Of a DNA stretch of 64,000 nucleotides, positions 22,677 through 57,892 are shown piece by piece; the first letter of the stretch is position 1; every line of letters starts with the position of its first letter. This DNA is from Desulforamulus hydrothermalis Lam5 = DSM 18033 (GTDB lineage: Bacteria > Bacillota > Desulfotomaculia > Desulfotomaculales > Desulfotomaculaceae), in assembly GCF_000315365.1 (NCBI RefSeq), contig NZ_CAOS01000001.1, forward strand, positions 125,456 through 189,455. The letters run 5' to 3'. The notes beneath the pieces are model-generated. The model did not search any database. It was not told where the DNA came from and worked only from the letters and a program-made list of their open reading frames with translations. The translations under genes and the position numbers were made by a program.

Positions 22677-22700
22677 AAAAGCACAGCCTTGGCTGTGCTT
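22677..22700 (+). terminator. Terminator hairpin of ybjQ, left copy of a duplicated pair
   Basis: The stem GCACAGCC/GGCTGTGC is preceded by AAAA. The same hairpin with one loop base changed recurs at 22814-22839. The two copies bracket a 113-bp repeat element. Confidence 0.7.
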
Positions 22701-22813
22701 CAGACTGTAGACAAAGGTGTAAAACAAAGCGAGGTGGTTTTATGATCCCCTGTCGGTGCGTAGACCGGAGCCAAAGGGGATCATAAACCACCGATAATAT
22801 TTGTCGACACTCG
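22701..22813 (-). mobile_element. Terminal-inverted-repeat element, copy A (internally deleted, 113 bp)
   Basis: On the minus strand it has the same ends as copy B: near-terminal GTGTCGACAAA at the left, TTTGTCTACAGTCTG at the right, and inner inverted repeats GGTGGTTTATGATCCCC / GGGGATCATAAAACCACC. The middle of copy B (about 150 bp) is missing, and the join lies at CCGACAG, a 7-mer repeated at both deletion ends in copy B. It is flanked by two copies of one terminator hairpin. It has no coding capacity. Confidence 0.75.
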
Positions 22814-22839
22814 AAAAGCACAGCCCTGGCTGTGCTTTT
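22814..22839 (-). terminator. Terminator hairpin of cheW, right copy of a duplicated pair
   Basis: AAAAGCACAGCC / GGCTGTGCTTTT is symmetrical and serves the minus-strand cheW-like gene. It is a near-identical direct repeat of the hairpin at 22677-22700. Confidence 0.75.
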
Positions 22840-22846
22840 AGACGGA

Positions 22847-23266
22847 TTACAGTACCGTATCTAAATTTATCAGCAGCCAGAGCTGGTCCCCCTTCTTGAC
22901 GACACCCTTAAGGAAATCCACATTGTCCCCGATCATGTTGGGAGGTTCCACTTCATTTTCCGTATACCGTCCCACCTCGAGAACACTGTCTACAATCATC
23001 CCCACCTTATTGCCCTTGTTTTCCACCACAATGATCCGGGTATCTTCGTTTTGTTCGGTTTCCGGCAGGCCAAGGCGGCGGTTAAGGCTGATTACCGGCA
23101 GGATGGTGCCGCGCAAATTAATAATGCCTTCAATATAATAACTGGTATTGGGCAGGCGGGTCACTTCCGCCATGCGGATAATTTCCTGGGTTTCGTGAAT
23201 AGGAAGGGCATATTGCTGATCGTTAAGTTGAAACACTACCAGCTGCTCTTCTTGACCAACGGCCAT
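22847..23266 (-). CDS. CheW-like chemotaxis coupling protein
   Basis: A 139-aa single CheW domain that couples chemoreceptors to the CheA kinase. Typical features are LVVFQLNDQQYALPIHETQEIIRM, INLRGTILPVISLNRRLGLP and a late VDSVLEV. ATG at 23266 is chosen because GAGGAG lies 8 bp upstream; the in-frame GTG at 23275 overlaps that ribosome binding site. No cheA is nearby. The chemoreceptor-like proteins at 36 and 58 kb are possible partners. Confidence 0.9.
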   Translation of the reverse strand: MAVGQEEQLVVFQLNDQQYALPIHETQEIIRMAEVTRLPNTSYYIEGIINLRGTILPVISLNRRLGLPETEQNEDTRIIVVENKGNKVGMIVDSVLEVGRYTENEVEPPNMIGDNVDFLKGVVKKGDQLWLLINLDTVL

Positions 23267-23540
23267 TAAAATCACTCCTCGTGTGTTAAATTGGACTTGG
23301 GCTGGAGCCTAAGTTTTAACGTCTTTATCAATAACAGGTGTCTGTCCTAAAACGGTTAGTTAGATATTCTACACCGGGGTAAAATATTCCTTTGTTAGCC
23401 AGAATGTCAAACTTTGTATTTTTTTGTTTTGTGTTATTACAAAAAAATTAAATTCTTGCTAAAATAGCTAAAATAAATTGACTGATAATTTTATATAAGT
23501 ATAATTAAATTAACACCTGACAAATACGGGTTAACCCGGT

Positions 23541-23670
23541 TTGGAGGGTATGACAACGCATAGTGTTTCCCTGAGGAGAAAGGCCGGCGGCCTTGGACCA
23601 AGGGGTACGCCTTTTGGGGTGTACACTACCCGTCTCTGCCTTTCTCCGGCATGTGACGGGTTTTATTTTT
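23541..23670 (+). promoter_or_regulatory. Structured leader RNA (attenuator or riboswitch candidate) of the hydrogenase-maturation operon
   Basis: The leader can form a perfect 10-bp stem, GGAGAAAGGC (23575-23584) with GCCTTTCTCC (23638-23647). It encloses hairpin AAGGCC/GGCCTT and hairpin GTACGCC/GGTGTAC. The 3' arm overlaps an intrinsic terminator (ACCCGTC 23628-23634 with GACGGGT 23655-23661, then TTTATTTTT), so the two folds exclude each other. GGGTA..AGTGT at 23546-23566 can also pair with ACACTACCC at 23623-23631. It matches no riboswitch class I can recall. Confidence 0.7.
23628..23670 (+). terminator. Terminator within the hydrogenase-maturation leader
   Basis: ACCCGTC/GACGGGT (7 bp) and an inner TGCC/GGCA are followed by nine residues, mostly T. 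It ends just before the ribosome binding site of the TM1266-type gene, so read-through is needed for expression. Confidence 0.75.
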
Positions 23671-23683
23671 GGAGGTGGCTGCT

Positions 23684-23932
23684 TTGCATCGTCGTATCGG
23701 GGTGGTGGGCATTGTGATTGAAGATCGCAACAAAGCTCCGGAGATAAATAACATTCTGAGCCGGTACTCAGAAATTATTATCGGCCGCATGGGCATACCC
23801 CATAAAGAAAGGGGCCTTTCTGTTATTTCCCTCATCGTGGAAGGCACCAATGATGAAATCGGGGCCATGACAGGCAAGTTGGGCAATATCAAGGGAGTTC
23901 AGGTAAAATCTGCCCTCAGCACAAAATATTAG
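23684..23932 (+). CDS. TM1266-type iron-only hydrogenase system regulator
   Basis: Small ACT-like protein (82 aa) found beside [FeFe]-hydrogenase genes and presumed regulatory. It reads HRRIGVVGIVIEDRNKAPEIN..., then IIGRMGIPHKERGLSVISLIVEGTNDEIGAMTGKLGNIKGVQVKSA, the family pattern. The TTG at 23684 is chosen because GGAGGT at 23671 precedes it by 7 bp; the longer frame would place the ribosome binding site inside the gene. It heads the aspartase-hydF-hydE-hydG operon. Ligand and mode of action unknown. Confidence 0.85.
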   Translation: MHRRIGVVGIVIEDRNKAPEINNILSRYSEIIIGRMGIPHKERGLSVISLIVEGTNDEIGAMTGKLGNIKGVQVKSALSTKY

Positions 23933-23935
23933 GGG

Positions 23936-25381
23936 GTGAGCAAGCTGCAGTACCGCATTGAGCAAGATCTTATCGGCCCCAAAGAAATTCCGGCGGCAGC
24001 CTATTATGGTATTCATACGGCACGGGCAGCAGAAAACTTTAATGTATCAGGGCAAAGGGTGCATCCTGAACTTATCAAAGCAATGGCTGTGGTAAAACAG
24101 GCAGCTGCCGAAACCAACATAGCACTAGGCTTGTTGGAGCCCAACCTGGGCAGCGCTGTTTTTCAGGCGGCGGCAGAGGTGGCAGAAGGGAAACTGGCCG
24201 ATCAGTTTATTGTGGATGCCCTGCAAGGAGGAGCGGGTACTTCCACTAACATGAATGTTAACGAAGTAATTGCCAACCGGGCCATCGAAATTTTAGGTGG
24301 CAGGAAAGGCGATTATTCTCTGGTGCACCCGGTAAATCACGTTAACATGTCCCAGTCAACCAACGATGTATACCCTACCGCCCTGCGGATTGCCGCTATC
24401 CGTTTGCTGGCACGCCTCTCCCAGGCCTGTGCCAATTTGCAGGGGGCCCTGCAGGCAAAAGAGGCAGAATTTGCCGGGGTATTAAAGGTTGGCCGCACCC
24501 AGTTGCAGGATGCCGTGCCAATTACCCTGGGCCAGGAGTTTGCCGCCTGGGCAGAAGCCATTGCCCGGGATCGCTGGCGCTTATACAAGGTGGAAGAACG
24601 TTTGCGGCAAGTTAACCTGGGCGGCACAGCGGTAGGGACCGGGCTGAATGCCGAGCGCAAATACATCTACTCGGTGATTGAACGGCTCAGGGCCTTAACC
24701 GGACTGGGATTGGCCCGTAACGAAAATATGATTGACGGTACGCAAAATGCTGATGTTTTTGTAGAGGTGGCGGGACTGGTCAAGGCTAATGCTGCCAGCC
24801 TGGTTAAAATAGCCGGGGATTTGCGGCTCCTGGCCTCCGGTCCCCGGGCGGGCCTGGGAGAAATCAGACTGCCGGACCTGCAAGCCGGTTCCTCTATTAT
24901 GCCGGGAAAAGTAAACCCGGTATTGCCGGAAATGATTACCCAGGTGGCCTACCAGGCCATGGCTCAGGATTTGGCCATTACCCTGGCGGTACAGGCGGGG
25001 CAGTTGGAACTGAATGCTTTCCTGCCCCTGGTGGCTGCCAATCTGTTGCCGGCCCTGGAAACCCTCAGCAAGGCCATAAACCTGTTAGCGGAACGTTGTA
25101 TTAAAGGGATTCAAGCGGTACCTGAAAAATGTTTGGCCCACCTGCACAACAGTGTAGGCGTGATTACCGCCCTCATGCCCCTGGTGGGCTATGATACGGC
25201 TTCTGAACTGGCTAAAGCCGCTTTAAGAAGCGGTCGCCCGGTGAGGGATGTGATTTTGCAAGCGGGCTTATTTACAGAAGCTGAATTGGATCAACTGCTA
25301 AGACCGGAGGAAGTGACCCGGCCGGGGATGGCGGGCAAGCGCAAAGCCAAAAGCCAGTATAATCTGAAGGGGGTAACCTGA
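23936..25381 (+). CDS. aspA: Aspartate ammonia-lyase
   Basis: Converts L-aspartate to fumarate and ammonia (481 aa). The superfamily signature GSSIMPGKVNPV is at about residues 318-329; the N-terminus YRIEQDLIGPKEIPAAAYYGIHTARAAENF is aspartase-like rather than fumarase-like. GTG start at 23936 with AGGGGG upstream. It lies between the TM1266-type regulator and hydF, a recurring position in maturation clusters, where ammonia for the azadithiolate bridge is a possible but unproven purpose. Its stop overlaps the hydF start by one base. Confidence 0.87.
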   Translation: MSKLQYRIEQDLIGPKEIPAAAYYGIHTARAAENFNVSGQRVHPELIKAMAVVKQAAAETNIALGLLEPNLGSAVFQAAAEVAEGKLADQFIVDALQGGAGTSTNMNVNEVIANRAIEILGGRKGDYSLVHPVNHVNMSQSTNDVYPTALRIAAIRLLARLSQACANLQGALQAKEAEFAGVLKVGRTQLQDAVPITLGQEFAAWAEAIARDRWRLYKVEERLRQVNLGGTAVGTGLNAERKYIYSVIERLRALTGLGLARNENMIDGTQNADVFVEVAGLVKANAASLVKIAGDLRLLASGPRAGLGEIRLPDLQAGSSIMPGKVNPVLPEMITQVAYQAMAQDLAITLAVQAGQLELNAFLPLVAANLLPALETLSKAINLLAERCIKGIQAVPEKCLAHLHNSVGVITALMPLVGYDTASELAKAALRSGRPVRDVILQAGLFTEAELDQLLRPEEVTRPGMAGKRKAKSQYNLKGVT

Positions 25382-26610
25382 TGGACAGCACACCAAGAGG
25401 AAATCGGCTTCATATAGCTATCTTCGGGCGGCGCAACGCCGGTAAGTCCAGTTTGATAAATGCACTGACCAACCAGGATATTGCTGTTGTATCCCATGTG
25501 CCAGGTACCACCACTGACCCGGTGTACAAAGCCATGGAGATTTTGCCGGTGGGTCCGGTGGTAATTATTGACACTGCGGGCATTGATGATACCGGACAAC
25601 TGGGCGAACTTAGAGTACAGCGGTCTCTTGAAGTATTAAATAAAGCTGACCTGGTACTGCTGGTAATGGATGCCGGCGCCGGGCTAAGCGAATTTGAACA
25701 GGACATTGTATCCCGCTGCCAAACCAAAAAGCTGCCGGTAGTGGCGGTACTGAATAAAACAGACCAATATCCGGTAAATCAGCAGCAAGTTGATGAAATT
25801 AAAGAAAAACTGGCACTGGAACCGGTGGCGGTGAGCGCTCTTACCGGTACCGGTATCTCTGAATTGAAAATAGCAATAATCAAAGCCGCCCCCCCCGCTT
25901 GGGATGACCAGACAATTGTAGGTGACCTGCTGAATCCCGGGGACGTGGCTGTACTGGTTGTACCTATTGATCTGGCGGCGCCCAAGGGGCGGTTAATTTT
26001 GCCCCAGGTGCAAACCATCCGGGATATTTTGGATCACGATGCCATGGCCTATGTAGTAAAGGAAAGGGAATTAAAGGAGTGTATAGCATCTTTAAATAAA
26101 AAACCCAGGATTGTGATTACCGACTCCCAGGCTTTTCTCAAAGCAGATGCTGATACGCCGCCGGATGTCCTGTTAACTTCCTTTTCTATCCTGTTTGCCC
26201 GTTATAAAGGGGATTTAGAAACCCTGGTGGCAGGGGCAAAAGCTATTGAAAAATTAAAGCCGGGTGATAAAGTGCTGATAGCCGAGGCATGCACCCATCA
26301 CCGGATGGAAGACGATATCGGTACCGTCAAGATACCACGCTGGCTGCGCCAGATTGTGGGCGGTGATTTGGATTTTCATTGGTGCAGCGGGCACCGGTTC
26401 CCGGCGGATCTGTCGGAATATAAGCTGGTGGTGCACTGCGGCTCCTGTATGATTAACCGGCGGGAAATGCTGTCCCGCATTATGCAGGTGCAACAGGCGG
26501 GTGTTCCTATTGTTAATTACGGGGTGTGCATAGCCTATGTGCAAGGCATTCTCAGACGGGCCCTGTCCCCCTTCCCGGTGTTACAAGAGATGCTGGATGA
26601 TTTAGATTAA
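25381..26610 (+). CDS. hydF: [FeFe]-hydrogenase maturation GTPase HydF
   Basis: Scaffold on which the H-cluster 2Fe subcluster is built (409 aa). N-terminal GTPase: Walker A GRRNAGKSSL (about residues 16-25), switch region GTTTDPV, DTAGIDD and NKTD. The C-terminal [4Fe-4S] site is formed by EACTHHR and HCGSC. It is coupled to the aspartase upstream and is 24 bp from hydE. Confidence 0.95.
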   Translation: MDSTPRGNRLHIAIFGRRNAGKSSLINALTNQDIAVVSHVPGTTTDPVYKAMEILPVGPVVIIDTAGIDDTGQLGELRVQRSLEVLNKADLVLLVMDAGAGLSEFEQDIVSRCQTKKLPVVAVLNKTDQYPVNQQQVDEIKEKLALEPVAVSALTGTGISELKIAIIKAAPPAWDDQTIVGDLLNPGDVAVLVVPIDLAAPKGRLILPQVQTIRDILDHDAMAYVVKERELKECIASLNKKPRIVITDSQAFLKADADTPPDVLLTSFSILFARYKGDLETLVAGAKAIEKLKPGDKVLIAEACTHHRMEDDIGTVKIPRWLRQIVGGDLDFHWCSGHRFPADLSEYKLVVHCGSCMINRREMLSRIMQVQQAGVPIVNYGVCIAYVQGILRRALSPFPVLQEMLDDLD

Positions 26611-26634
26611 TTTGCCCACAAAGGGGGATTGCCT

Positions 26635-27720
26635 GTGCGGCAAGATTTTATCAAAGCATTTAACAAGGCAGCCGATGGCAGCCAACTAACCAGAGCAGAT
26701 CTTACAGTGCTGCTGCAAGCCCAAGCGGGAGAAGAGGAAGCAAAATTATTTGAACTGGCCGATGCGGTGCGGCAGAAAAATTTTGGTAATGCAGTACACC
26801 TGCGGGGCATTATTGAGTTTTCTAATTTCTGCCGTAACGACTGCCACTACTGCGGATTGCGGCGCAGCAACCGGGCCATTCGCCGTTACCGCATACCGCT
26901 GCCGGAAATTGTGGCTACCGCCAAATATGCTGCTGATTTAGGTTACGGTACCATCGTTTTACAGGCCGGGGAGGATCCCGCCTATTCAGGTGAACAATTG
27001 GCTGAGATGATCCGCCAAGTCAAGGAAGCAGGTGACTTTGCTGTCACCGTTTGTGTGGGCGAACGCAGCCGGCGTGATTATGAACTCATGAGAGAAGCAG
27101 GTGCGGATCGCTATTTGCTAAAACACGAAACAGCGGATGCCGCGTTGTTTGCCGGCCTGCGGCCGGGCACCTCGCTGGCAGAACGGATCAAGCGGCTGAA
27201 ATGGCTGCGCGAATTGGGTTACCAGGTTGGCTCCGGCAATATGGTAGGGCTGCCGGGACAGACGGTGGAAACTTTGGCGGATGACCTCCTGCTCTTAAAG
27301 GAATTGGATGTGGAAATGGCCGGCATCGGACCTTTTATTCCCCATCACCAGACACCGTTAAAGGACAGTCCGGCCGGAGATTTAAAGCAAACCCTAAAAA
27401 CCCTGGCAGTGGCAAGAATCCTCCTGCCGCAAACCCACCTGCCGGCCACCACCGCCATCGGCACCTTGCACCCGGCAGGACGCCGGATGGCCCTGGCCTG
27501 CGGTGCCAATGTAATCATGCCTAATTTGTCACCGGCCGGCTATCGCCAATTGTATCAAATTTATCCGGAAAAGGCCGGGAGTAAAGAAAACCCGGAGGAA
27601 TCTCACGAAAAGATAGCCAGGCTGGTAAAAGAAGCGGGGCGGTATATTAGTACGGGTCGGGGCGACAGCCCCAAGGAAATATTTAAAAAAAGTCCGGACA
27701 CTTGGGCCGGAGAAAGGTAA
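26635..27720 (+). CDS. hydE: [FeFe]-hydrogenase maturation radical SAM protein HydE
   Basis: Radical SAM enzyme (361 aa) that acts on the iron synthon made by HydG. Cluster motif FCRNDCHYCGL (CX3CX2C, about residues 64-71) with the downstream VLQAGEDP block. GTG at 26635 is preferred to the TTG at 26629 because GGGGG at 26622-26626 then has proper spacing. It is immediately followed by hydG. Confidence 0.93.
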   Translation: MRQDFIKAFNKAADGSQLTRADLTVLLQAQAGEEEAKLFELADAVRQKNFGNAVHLRGIIEFSNFCRNDCHYCGLRRSNRAIRRYRIPLPEIVATAKYAADLGYGTIVLQAGEDPAYSGEQLAEMIRQVKEAGDFAVTVCVGERSRRDYELMREAGADRYLLKHETADAALFAGLRPGTSLAERIKRLKWLRELGYQVGSGNMVGLPGQTVETLADDLLLLKELDVEMAGIGPFIPHHQTPLKDSPAGDLKQTLKTLAVARILLPQTHLPATTAIGTLHPAGRRMALACGANVIMPNLSPAGYRQLYQIYPEKAGSKENPEESHEKIARLVKEAGRYISTGRGDSPKEIFKKSPDTWAGER

Positions 27721-27730
27721 GGTGAGCCTG

Positions 27731-29197
27731 ATGGCAATTAACAAGGCGGAGATTTATCATAACCAGTGGGAACCGGCAGATTTTATTAAGGAAGAAGAAA
27801 TCAACCGTATGCTGGAGGAAGCTAAACAAGCTCCGGCGGCCTGCGTCAGAGAGATAATTGAAAAGGCACGGCAGGCCCGGGGGCTGACGCCGGAAGAAGT
27901 AGCCGTTTTGCTGCAAAATGAAGATGAAGAACTGCTGTCTTTAATGTATGAAGTGGCTAGGGAAATAAAGCTGAAGATTTACGGCAAACGTCTGGTCTTG
28001 TTTGCCCCGCTGTATATCAGTGATCACTGTGTCAATAACTGTGTTTATTGCGGCTACCGCCGGGATAACAAGTTTAAACGCCGCAAATTAACCCAGGAGG
28101 AAGTGGCAGAAGAAGTAAAAATTTTGGAATCAATGGGACACAAGAGGTTGGCCTTGGAAGCCGGCGAACACCCGGGAGAATGTCCGATTGAGTATGTGCT
28201 GGAATGCTTAAACACAATTTACAGTATTAAATTTGACAATGGCAGCATCCGCCGCTGCAACGTCAATATTGCCGCCACCACTATTGAAGATTATAAGAAA
28301 CTGAAAGATGCCGGCATTGGTACTTATATCTTATTCCAGGAAACCTATCACCGGGCCACTTATCAAAAGATGCACCCCAGCGGCCCCAAGGCTGATTATG
28401 ATTGGCATACCACCGCCCACGACCGGGCTATGATGGCCGGTATTGATGATGTTGGCTTTGGTGTACTGTTTGGCCTGTACGATTACAAATTTGAAGTTTT
28501 GGGTCTGTTGATGCATGCTTTGCATTTGGAAGAACGTTTCGGTGTAGGTCCGCATACCATTTCGGTGCCGCGCTTACGGCCGGCCCTGGGAGTGGATTAC
28601 AACAGCTTCCCCTATTTAGTAAATGACGACCAGTTTATGAAACTGGTAGCTATTATTCGCCTGGCAGTTCCCTATACCGGCATGATTATTTCCACCCGGG
28701 AACGGCCCGCTTATCGTGATATGTTGTTGAACTACGGCATATCACAAATTTCTGCCGGCTCCTGTACCGGCGTAGGCGGCTACAAACGGGAACTGCAGCG
28801 TCAGCAATGCCTGGCTGAGGGTGGCAGCCGGTGCGGCGGCGAACAAGATGCCCCGCAGTTCAGCGTGGATGACCACCGTACACCGGATGAGGTATTGCGC
28901 AGCGTCTGCCAATCCGGTTGGCTGCCCAGCTACTGCACAGCCTGCTACCGTAAAGGGCGCACCGGCGACAGGTTCATGGCCCTGGCCAAAAGCGGTGAAA
29001 TTCAAAACGTTTGCCAGCCCAATGCTATCCTTACCTTTAAAGAATACCTGCTTGACTATGCTTCGCCTGAGACCAGGGCAGTGGGAGAAGAAACCATTCG
29101 CCGGCACCTGGCCGAAATCAGCAACCCGCAAATCAGAAAAATTACAGAAGAACGTCTTAAACAAATTGAAGCCGGGGAAAGAGACCTGTATTTCTAG
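27731..29197 (+). CDS. hydG: [FeFe]-hydrogenase maturation radical SAM protein HydG
   Basis: Cleaves tyrosine to give the CO and cyanide ligands of the H-cluster (488 aa). The SAM cluster motif is CVNNCVYCGYRR (about residue 98). The C-terminal auxiliary-cluster motif CTACYRKGRTGDRFM is present, which separates HydG from ThiH. ATG at 27731 has AAGGTGAG at good spacing; a GTG at 27722 is the alternative. It ends the operon; a duplicated terminator and repeat element copy B follow. Confidence 0.95.
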   Translation: MAINKAEIYHNQWEPADFIKEEEINRMLEEAKQAPAACVREIIEKARQARGLTPEEVAVLLQNEDEELLSLMYEVAREIKLKIYGKRLVLFAPLYISDHCVNNCVYCGYRRDNKFKRRKLTQEEVAEEVKILESMGHKRLALEAGEHPGECPIEYVLECLNTIYSIKFDNGSIRRCNVNIAATTIEDYKKLKDAGIGTYILFQETYHRATYQKMHPSGPKADYDWHTTAHDRAMMAGIDDVGFGVLFGLYDYKFEVLGLLMHALHLEERFGVGPHTISVPRLRPALGVDYNSFPYLVNDDQFMKLVAIIRLAVPYTGMIISTRERPAYRDMLLNYGISQISAGSCTGVGGYKRELQRQQCLAEGGSRCGGEQDAPQFSVDDHRTPDEVLRSVCQSGWLPSYCTACYRKGRTGDRFMALAKSGEIQNVCQPNAILTFKEYLLDYASPETRAVGEETIRRHLAEISNPQIRKITEERLKQIEAGERDLYF

Positions 29198-29216
29198 GCA
29201 ATTTCTAAGTGCGTAC

Positions 29217-29241
29217 AAAAGTGGGTGATTTACCCACTTTT
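29217..29241 (+). terminator. Terminator hairpin of hydG, left copy of an exact 25-bp duplication
   Basis: GTGGGT/ACCCAC flanked by AAAA and TTTT. The same 25 bp recur at 29506-29530 without a change, on the other side of repeat element copy B. Confidence 0.8.
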
Positions 29242-29505
29242 CAGCGTGTCAACAAATATTAGCGGTGGTTTATGATCCCCTTTGGCTCCGGTCTACGCAC
29301 CGACAGCACTATGATTCGCTACGGTGGCCATTGGGGTCGCCTCAAACGGGCCCTCCTGGCCCGGTTCGGCTGGCGCCCACGTCCTGTGGGCGCCACCCCA
29401 ATGGCTCCTTTCGCTCATCAAGTGCTGTAACCGGTGCTTCGACAAGTCGCCGACAGGGGATCATAAATCACCTTACTTTGTTTTACAACCTTTGTCTACA
29501 GTCTG
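29242..29505 (+). mobile_element. Terminal-inverted-repeat element, copy B (264 bp)
   Basis: The element starts CAGCGTGTCAACAAA and ends TTTGTCTACAGTCTG, which are imperfect inverted repeats. Inner inverted repeats are GGTGGTTTATGATCCCC and GGGGATCATAAATCACC. A GC-rich hairpin (TGGCGCCCACG..GTGGGCGCCA) lies in the middle. The ORFs across it are not conserved in the other copies, so it is non-coding, like a MITE. It lies exactly between two identical 25-bp terminator hairpins, as if these were a target duplication. No transposase is in the window. Confidence 0.78.
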
Positions 29506-29537
29506 AAAAGTGGGTGATTTACCCACTTTTGTATTTT
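29506..29537 (+). terminator. Terminator hairpin, right copy, with T-tract
   Basis: Identical to 29217-29241 and followed by GTATTTTTT. It isolates the next gene from the hydG transcript. Confidence 0.8.
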
Positions 29538-57529: not shown

Positions 57530-57649
57530 AAGCCAGACCCGCCATTCGCAGATGTTAACATATTTTCGGTATTCGTAGAAAAAGCAAAAACTCCTGCCGC
57601 TGCAAATTAATCGGTGCTAGGTAAAATTTCCTATTTTTCGCAACCGATG

Positions 57650-57892
57650 GGTGGTTTGTGATCCCCTTTGGCTCCGGTCTACGCACCGACAGCACGATGA
57701 TTCGCTACGGTGGCCCTTGGGGTCGCCTCAACCGGGCCCTCCTGGCCCGGTTCGGGCGGCGCCCACGTCCTGTGTGCGCCACCCCAATGGCTCCTTTGCT
57801 CATCAAGTGCTGTTACCGGTGCTTCAACAAGTCGCCGGCAGGGGATCATAAAACCACCTTGTCATTGTTTTACAACCTTTGTCTACAGTCTG
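57650..57892 (+). mobile_element. Terminal-inverted-repeat element, copy C (about 243 bp, left end truncated or changed)
   Basis: From GGTGGTTTGTGATCCCC to GTCTACAGTCTG the sequence is nearly identical to copy B, including the central GC-rich hairpin. The outermost left end (GTGTCAACAAATATT) is absent. No duplicated terminator flanks it. It lies in the divergent gap between the DegS-like kinase and a chemoreceptor. The gap 57530-58017 otherwise holds only AT-rich sequence with no gene I can support. Confidence 0.75.

Follow-up and report, generated by a model that had tools for sequence, protein, structure and literature searches.

A short mobile element between duplicated terminator-like hairpins in Desulforamulus hydrothermalis: a probable MITE of an IS1182-family insertion sequence with a TwoAYGGAY core

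The window, i.e., the whole stretch of 64,000 nucleotides that was analysed (G000:C1:125456-189455), belongs to the 2.69-Mb genome of Desulforamulus hydrothermalis Lam5, which is assembled in 16 contigs. It carries copies of a short element at three places (Table 1). According to a preliminary description of this DNA, copy B is flanked by identical 25-bp hairpins, and the hairpins around copy A are near-identical to each other and differ in sequence from those of copy B; both statements were confirmed. The third copy is absent from that description.

Table 1. Features of the element copies in the window, and matching sites in D. putei
Feature	Position	Strand	Remarks
Site A, left hairpin copy	22677..22700	.	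Orthologous D. putei site has one hairpin
Copy A, coreless 114-bp MITE form	22701..22814	-	Internal junction common to most of the 12 copies in the 100-126 bp class
Site A, right hairpin copy	22814..22839	.	Boundary base in common with the element
Site B, left hairpin copy	29217..29241	.	19 nt past the stop codon of ORF 27722-29197
Copy B, full-length 264-bp MITE	29242..29505	+	Imperfect 15-bp terminal inverted repeats, fold-back interior
TwoAYGGAY RNA core within copy B	29290..29444 (L010 546-700)	-	RF01731, 58.9 bits (gathering score 43)
Site B, right hairpin copy	29506..29530	.	Identical to the left 25-bp copy, T-rich run after it
Third MITE copy (L011), left-truncated	57643..57892 (start approximate)	+	Flanks uninformative
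D. putei single-hairpin sites	L009 (site A), L012, L026, L036, L037, L038, L046, L065, L073, L074

When the genome was searched with the right end of the element, TTTGTCTACAGTCTG, 72 matches were obtained at no more than one mismatch. The left end gave 87 matches at no more than three mismatches, and the reversed pattern gave none for either end. We retrieved 90 loci: 70 stretches that together held all 72 right-end matches, plus another 20 for the left end. Other left-end matches were left out. Paired ends defined 75 copies, and 15 loci had no paired ends. The left and right flanks of each copy were compared by local alignment score, and 5,550 mismatched left/right pairs served as the null, with their 99th percentile as the threshold. 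Flank similarity exceeded this level in 61 of the 75 copies (median score 34 vs 10). After removal of eight mispaired or degenerate rows (L017, L052, L059, L071, L202, L205, L207, L219), the flanks were duplicated in 61/67 copies of the curated set, and 20 duplications were identical base for base. It is clear that the hairpin duplication seen around copies A and B is real and general across the family. The preliminary description had asked whether other copies lie between duplicated hairpins, and this check came out in its favour. Its view that the hairpins are specific to each locus, and behave as long target-site duplications, was borne out by the same comparison.

The copies ranged from 42 to 272 bp, the typical member being a fold-back element of roughly 265 bp. 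Duplication was found for 43 of 44 full-length copies, 10 of 12 copies of 100-126 bp, all four of 36-70 bp and four of the seven others. Inverted repeats (arm length 6 bp or more) adjoined the left side of the element in 45/67 copies and its right side in 46/67; of 804 nearby control stretches, 29 had one. The duplication of whole hairpins is not an absolute rule, as a few MITE copies and some of the related insertion sequences described below deviate from it. At L053, L064 and L218, for instance, the palindromic duplication was short or absent, the sites being AT-rich and without a clear hairpin. A tandem arrangement of element, hairpin and element was noted at L215 (G000:C11:28482 onward) and L156 (G038:C33), where the hairpin copy on the right has a further element end behind it.

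The insertion sites look like intrinsic terminators. With crude gene calls, in which the longest open stretch was taken as the gene (copy B itself was misassigned in this way), at least one neighbouring open stretch pointed toward the element in 58/67 copies, and the distance from the stop codon to the edge of the element, hairpin included, had a median of 34 nt (n = 77). A T-run or A-run was present at an outer hairpin edge in 55 of the 61 duplicated copies. On average, T made up 5.4 of the 10 nt at the outer side of the outer hairpin copy, compared with 1.9 of 6 nt at the inner edge. As most of the T-run stays on the outside of the outer copy, a transcript would be expected to traverse the element and to end only at the distal hairpin. 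Both neighbours keep a hairpin, whereas the preliminary description had each keep its terminator; the complete terminator would be the far one. The further proposal that insertion does no polar harm is plausible and was not shown; preserved termination remains an inference.

Orthologous sites in the closest relative, D. putei DSM 12395 (G001), were compared with the filled sites of D. hydrothermalis. Among 16 co-linear pairs listed, eight had a clean single hairpin in D. putei, and L012 and L037 were added from a separate comparison. At these ten sites the single hairpin is homologous in sequence to the D. hydrothermalis pair, so the expectation that empty sites would have one hairpin was fulfilled; at L038 one of the two D. 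hydrothermalis hairpin copies is damaged. A related element was present at the D. putei site for L010 and L218, and a short single palindrome for L027. The pairs for L028, L029, L205 and L219 were not clean, and the comparison was uninformative for L011 and L039. At site B, four regions were read of eight same-genus relatives. A single hairpin stands downstream of the same gene, which we take to be hydG, in three of them (L113, L114, L116), and D. putei (L110) has a remnant of a related element. The site of the remaining pair, L040 (G000:C13:64099-64155), is filled both in D. hydrothermalis and in D. putei (L151, 18909-19175), at the same hairpin and in a region 95-96% identical; the two elements there are of opposite orientation and measure 57 bp and 265 bp.

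The transposase-bearing element with the same ends that the preliminary description had envisaged was found in relatives. Two of them, D. putei and G008, carry a 1.6-kb insertion sequence (IS) that shares with the MITE the ends CAGACTGTNGACAAAG and TTTGTCNACAGTCTG. The similarity is restricted to these ends (15 bp), and the interior of the MITE is not derived from the IS. The D. putei transposase (490 residues) matched the IS1182 model NF033551 with 456 bits against a cut-off of 270, and had the Pfam domains DUF772 and DDE_Tnp_1_6. Most of the 25 plasmid matches listed for it (50-58% identity) are annotated as IS1182 family. In the D. hydrothermalis genome no close parent transposase was found, the best match having 25% identity (E 3e-4). 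Candidates C6 and C12 were rejected as weak and as unrelated copies. Candidate C5, presumably an IS1634-type gene (a label given from its appearance, without a family search), lacks the element ends. As the assembly consists of 16 contigs, a collapsed repeat cannot be excluded as the cause of the missing autonomous partner. The element qualifies as a MITE of an IS1182-family IS by its shortness, the lack of a transposase gene and the shared terminal inverted repeats. The additional criterion of an autonomous partner in the same genome is not met, the partner being in D. putei and G008.

The parent IS itself has the palindromic targets known for some IS1182 members. In the complete genome of G008, each of five full IS copies is flanked by identical palindromes of 21-27 bp in direct orientation, and a filled/empty pair is available: G008 has two palindrome copies at L183, and G003 has one at L188. 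Tenericutes bacterium MO-XQ, whose transposase is 44% identical, has nine copies, eight of them with a duplicated hairpin on either side; two of the nine do not differ in their flanks and could represent a single locus that was duplicated. Taking autonomous IS copies from Desulforamulus to Tenericutes together, 21/27 were duplicated at the 99% point of 700 mismatched pairs. Six plasmid IS loci were read, and duplication was seen in Peribacillus L361, Cetobacterium L364, Acetoanaerobium L365 and, by eye, Enterococcus L366. Peribacillus L362 has two different hairpins, and Arthrobacter L363 is unclear. Of the six IS copies without duplication, five lie between two complete hairpins that differ from each other, as do four of the five MITE copies read in G007. 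Simple duplication of a palindrome does not explain copies with different hairpins on either side. Complete but differing hairpins were noted on both sides at L298, L299, L301, L316 and L323 (IS flanks) and at L276-L279. D. putei also has a second family of short elements with IS1182-type ends and another interior (L193-L195, L153), one copy of which lies between duplicated TGGTAAAAATATATTTTTACCA palindromes.

The length of the duplication follows that of the palindrome. A stricter palindrome finder was applied to the 48 copies whose duplications are 85% identical or more. The two lengths differed by no more than 2 nt in 88% of these copies; permutation gave a mean of 45%, and the correlation was r = 0.70. 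With a laxer finder the correlation was near zero, because that finder picked outliers. A duplication as long as the palindrome is what would be expected if both transposon ends attacked a cruciform at its two 5' feet. We propose that an IS1182-family transposase uses the palindromes of intrinsic terminators as targets, the palindrome being extruded as a cruciform; the distance between the two cuts would then equal exactly one palindrome, and after repair of the gaps a full hairpin would stand on either side of the element. The cruciform state and the attack at the 5' feet are inferred, and no transposition has been observed. Likewise, that the MITE was mobilised in trans is only an inference, since the D. 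hydrothermalis genome now lacks such a transposase. That the element targets terminator hairpins and copies the whole hairpin, as had been suggested from copies A and B, agrees with the 61 duplicated copies and with the tracking of palindrome length. Our preferred reading, to which we give a probability of about 0.88, is that the element is a MITE of an IS1182-family IS whose transposase targets terminator palindromes and duplicates the whole palindrome, and that the TwoAYGGAY core is its cargo.

The flanking hairpins could be accounted for in other ways. That nearly every element end adjoins a hairpin might mean that the hairpin belongs to the mobile element and moves with it, but the hairpin sequences vary by locus and match the local empty site, and mismatched left and right hairpins are dissimilar. 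The locus-specific sequences rule this account out, and we attach practically no weight to it. Alternatively, the element may insert between terminators that are already paired, for example those of convergent genes, and duplicate nothing. The two different complete hairpins at 5/27 IS copies and at 4/5 G007 elements would suit such an insertion. It is contradicted by the ten empty sites with one hairpin, by the clean G008/G003 pair, and by filled-site hairpins that are near-identical and specific to the locus, 61/67 exceeding the mismatched-pair null. The single-hairpin empty sites reject it for the bulk of the copies; it could survive only for the unmatched class, and we consider it very improbable. 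For the unmatched class, one complex might capture two different hairpins, one with each IS end, the intervening DNA being deleted or inverted, or later recombination between IS copies might have swapped the flanks. Of the six IS copies that lack a duplication, five still have complete hairpins of different sequence at their two ends, and Peribacillus L362 is of the same kind. Ordinary homologous recombination between copies would yield the same picture as the capture of two hairpins (reciprocal partners outside the retrieved loci were not covered), and we allow this explanation only a slim chance. Duplication of the palindrome by the IS1182-family transposase remains the reading that we adopt for the family.

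The core of the full-length MITE matched the Rfam RNA TwoAYGGAY (RF01731) at about 50-65 bits, above the gathering score of 43, on the strand opposite to that of the first reading. RF01731 matches were present in 27/113 genomes of the order, four of which have at least 22 copies. In G016, which belongs to another family, TwoAYGGAY elements have IS1182-type ends, and several duplicated hairpins were seen by eye. In G019 and G046 the cores lie in unrelated outer arms, and no duplicated hairpins were seen around these elements. The multi-copy cores at L281-L285 (G046) and L286-L290 (G019) have entirely different arms. Such cores, with other arms and no visible duplication, may be carried by other mobile vehicles.

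Is the core an RNA cargo, or merely a DNA structure that serves as a fold-back in transposition or replication? For the latter speaks the fold of the whole full-length element back on itself (MFE -135.7), as does the lack of a preferred orientation of the RNA with respect to tandem genes (sense in 19 cases, antisense in 16, with crude gene calls). Against it, the coreless 115-bp subfamily reached at least nine distinct hairpin sites, with 10/12 copies duplicated (two of these share flanks); since this subfamily moved, the core is not needed for mobility. The occurrence of the core with unrelated arms in G019 and G046 also argues against a mere DNA structure. In a common fold of 20 cores from 11 genomes, double-sided changes occurred at 29 of the 34 pairs (without a shuffle control), and GGA was kept in both hairpin loops in 18 of the 20 sequences, which satisfies the criterion of two GGA loops. 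Of 265 columns, 70 are fully conserved; the GG columns of the loops make up only 4 of these and so are not strong evidence alone. Private isolated substitutions were rarer in the core than in the arms (23/5,348 vs 24/2,359 cells, p = 0.004). The direction was the same with all singletons, and also gap-free for the 264- and 265-bp copies; it was not reproduced in the two usable 266-bp copies. This suggests that the core is under constraint in inserted copies, although gene conversion could contribute. A role as DNA structure only thus stays possible, and we do not favour it over the cargo reading.

TwoAYGGAY has been proposed to bind CsrA, according to the part of PMC4333381 accessible to us. 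CsrA is encoded in 22 of the 27 genomes with RF01731 and in 40 of the 86 without (p = 0.0017, uncorrected for kinship); G068 has six RF01731 matches and no CsrA match. Support for CsrA sequestration is indirect only, transcription and CsrA binding being putative. One may speculate that the MITE is a transposable CsrA sponge, which spreads a CsrA-binding RNA by way of terminators; transcripts of any upstream gene would include this RNA as a 3' extension and stop at the duplicated terminator. We regard this as rather unlikely on present evidence. If it were true, the copy number of the MITE would set a CsrA-titrating dose, and the orphan RNA would be the cargo of terminator-targeting mobile elements. 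The location of a suspected CsrA-binding orphan RNA inside mobile elements makes a direct test possible.

The findings may be set beside known systems. Direct repeats of the IS1182 family range from 0 to 60 bp. The elements described here exploit terminators and yet leave a hairpin to both neighbours. IS1634 and IS1549 also make long direct repeats of variable length, for which there was no model at that time (in the accessible part of PMC2266710); their transposases are of another family. The MITE cores agree with RF01731 in scoring above its gathering score; the difference is that TwoAYGGAY is not described as part of a mobile element in the portion of PMC4333381 at our disposal. We found no report of a mobile TwoAYGGAY in the open-access literature, nor of whole-hairpin duplication by IS1182 beyond one hypothetical pathway; subscription reviews and ISfinder were not covered, and we make no claim of absence. 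That the core of the MITE is this orphan Rfam RNA is new, and it is the more surprising part, though less certain in function. Palindromic targets were attributed to some IS1182 members by Siguier et al. 2015, as quoted in PMC4923244 and PMC5678879. IS1272 and TnSha1 of Staphylococcus resemble the present IS in the name of the transposase family and in taking hairpins, many of them terminators, as targets (PMC4923244, PMC5678879, as far as these were available). They differ in outcome: from what could be consulted of Furi et al. (PMC4923244), they make deletions, not duplications, at the target, IS1272 removing the stem-loop. The present element keeps and duplicates the whole stem-loop, and hence does not meet the pattern of stem-loop replacement, i.e., hairpin loss without duplication. 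Beside the stem-loop-replacing model of IS1272, Wan et al. 2017 (PMC5678879, Fig. 13) drew a hypothetical branch, pathway b, for which the accessible text gives no example. The present loci fit pathway b. A known transposase family thus acts in a way that had been drawn but, in the open-access papers covered, not shown, and the loci offer natural, replicated evidence, with empty sites, for a rule that the duplication equals the palindrome, earlier only drawn for IS1182-type transposases.
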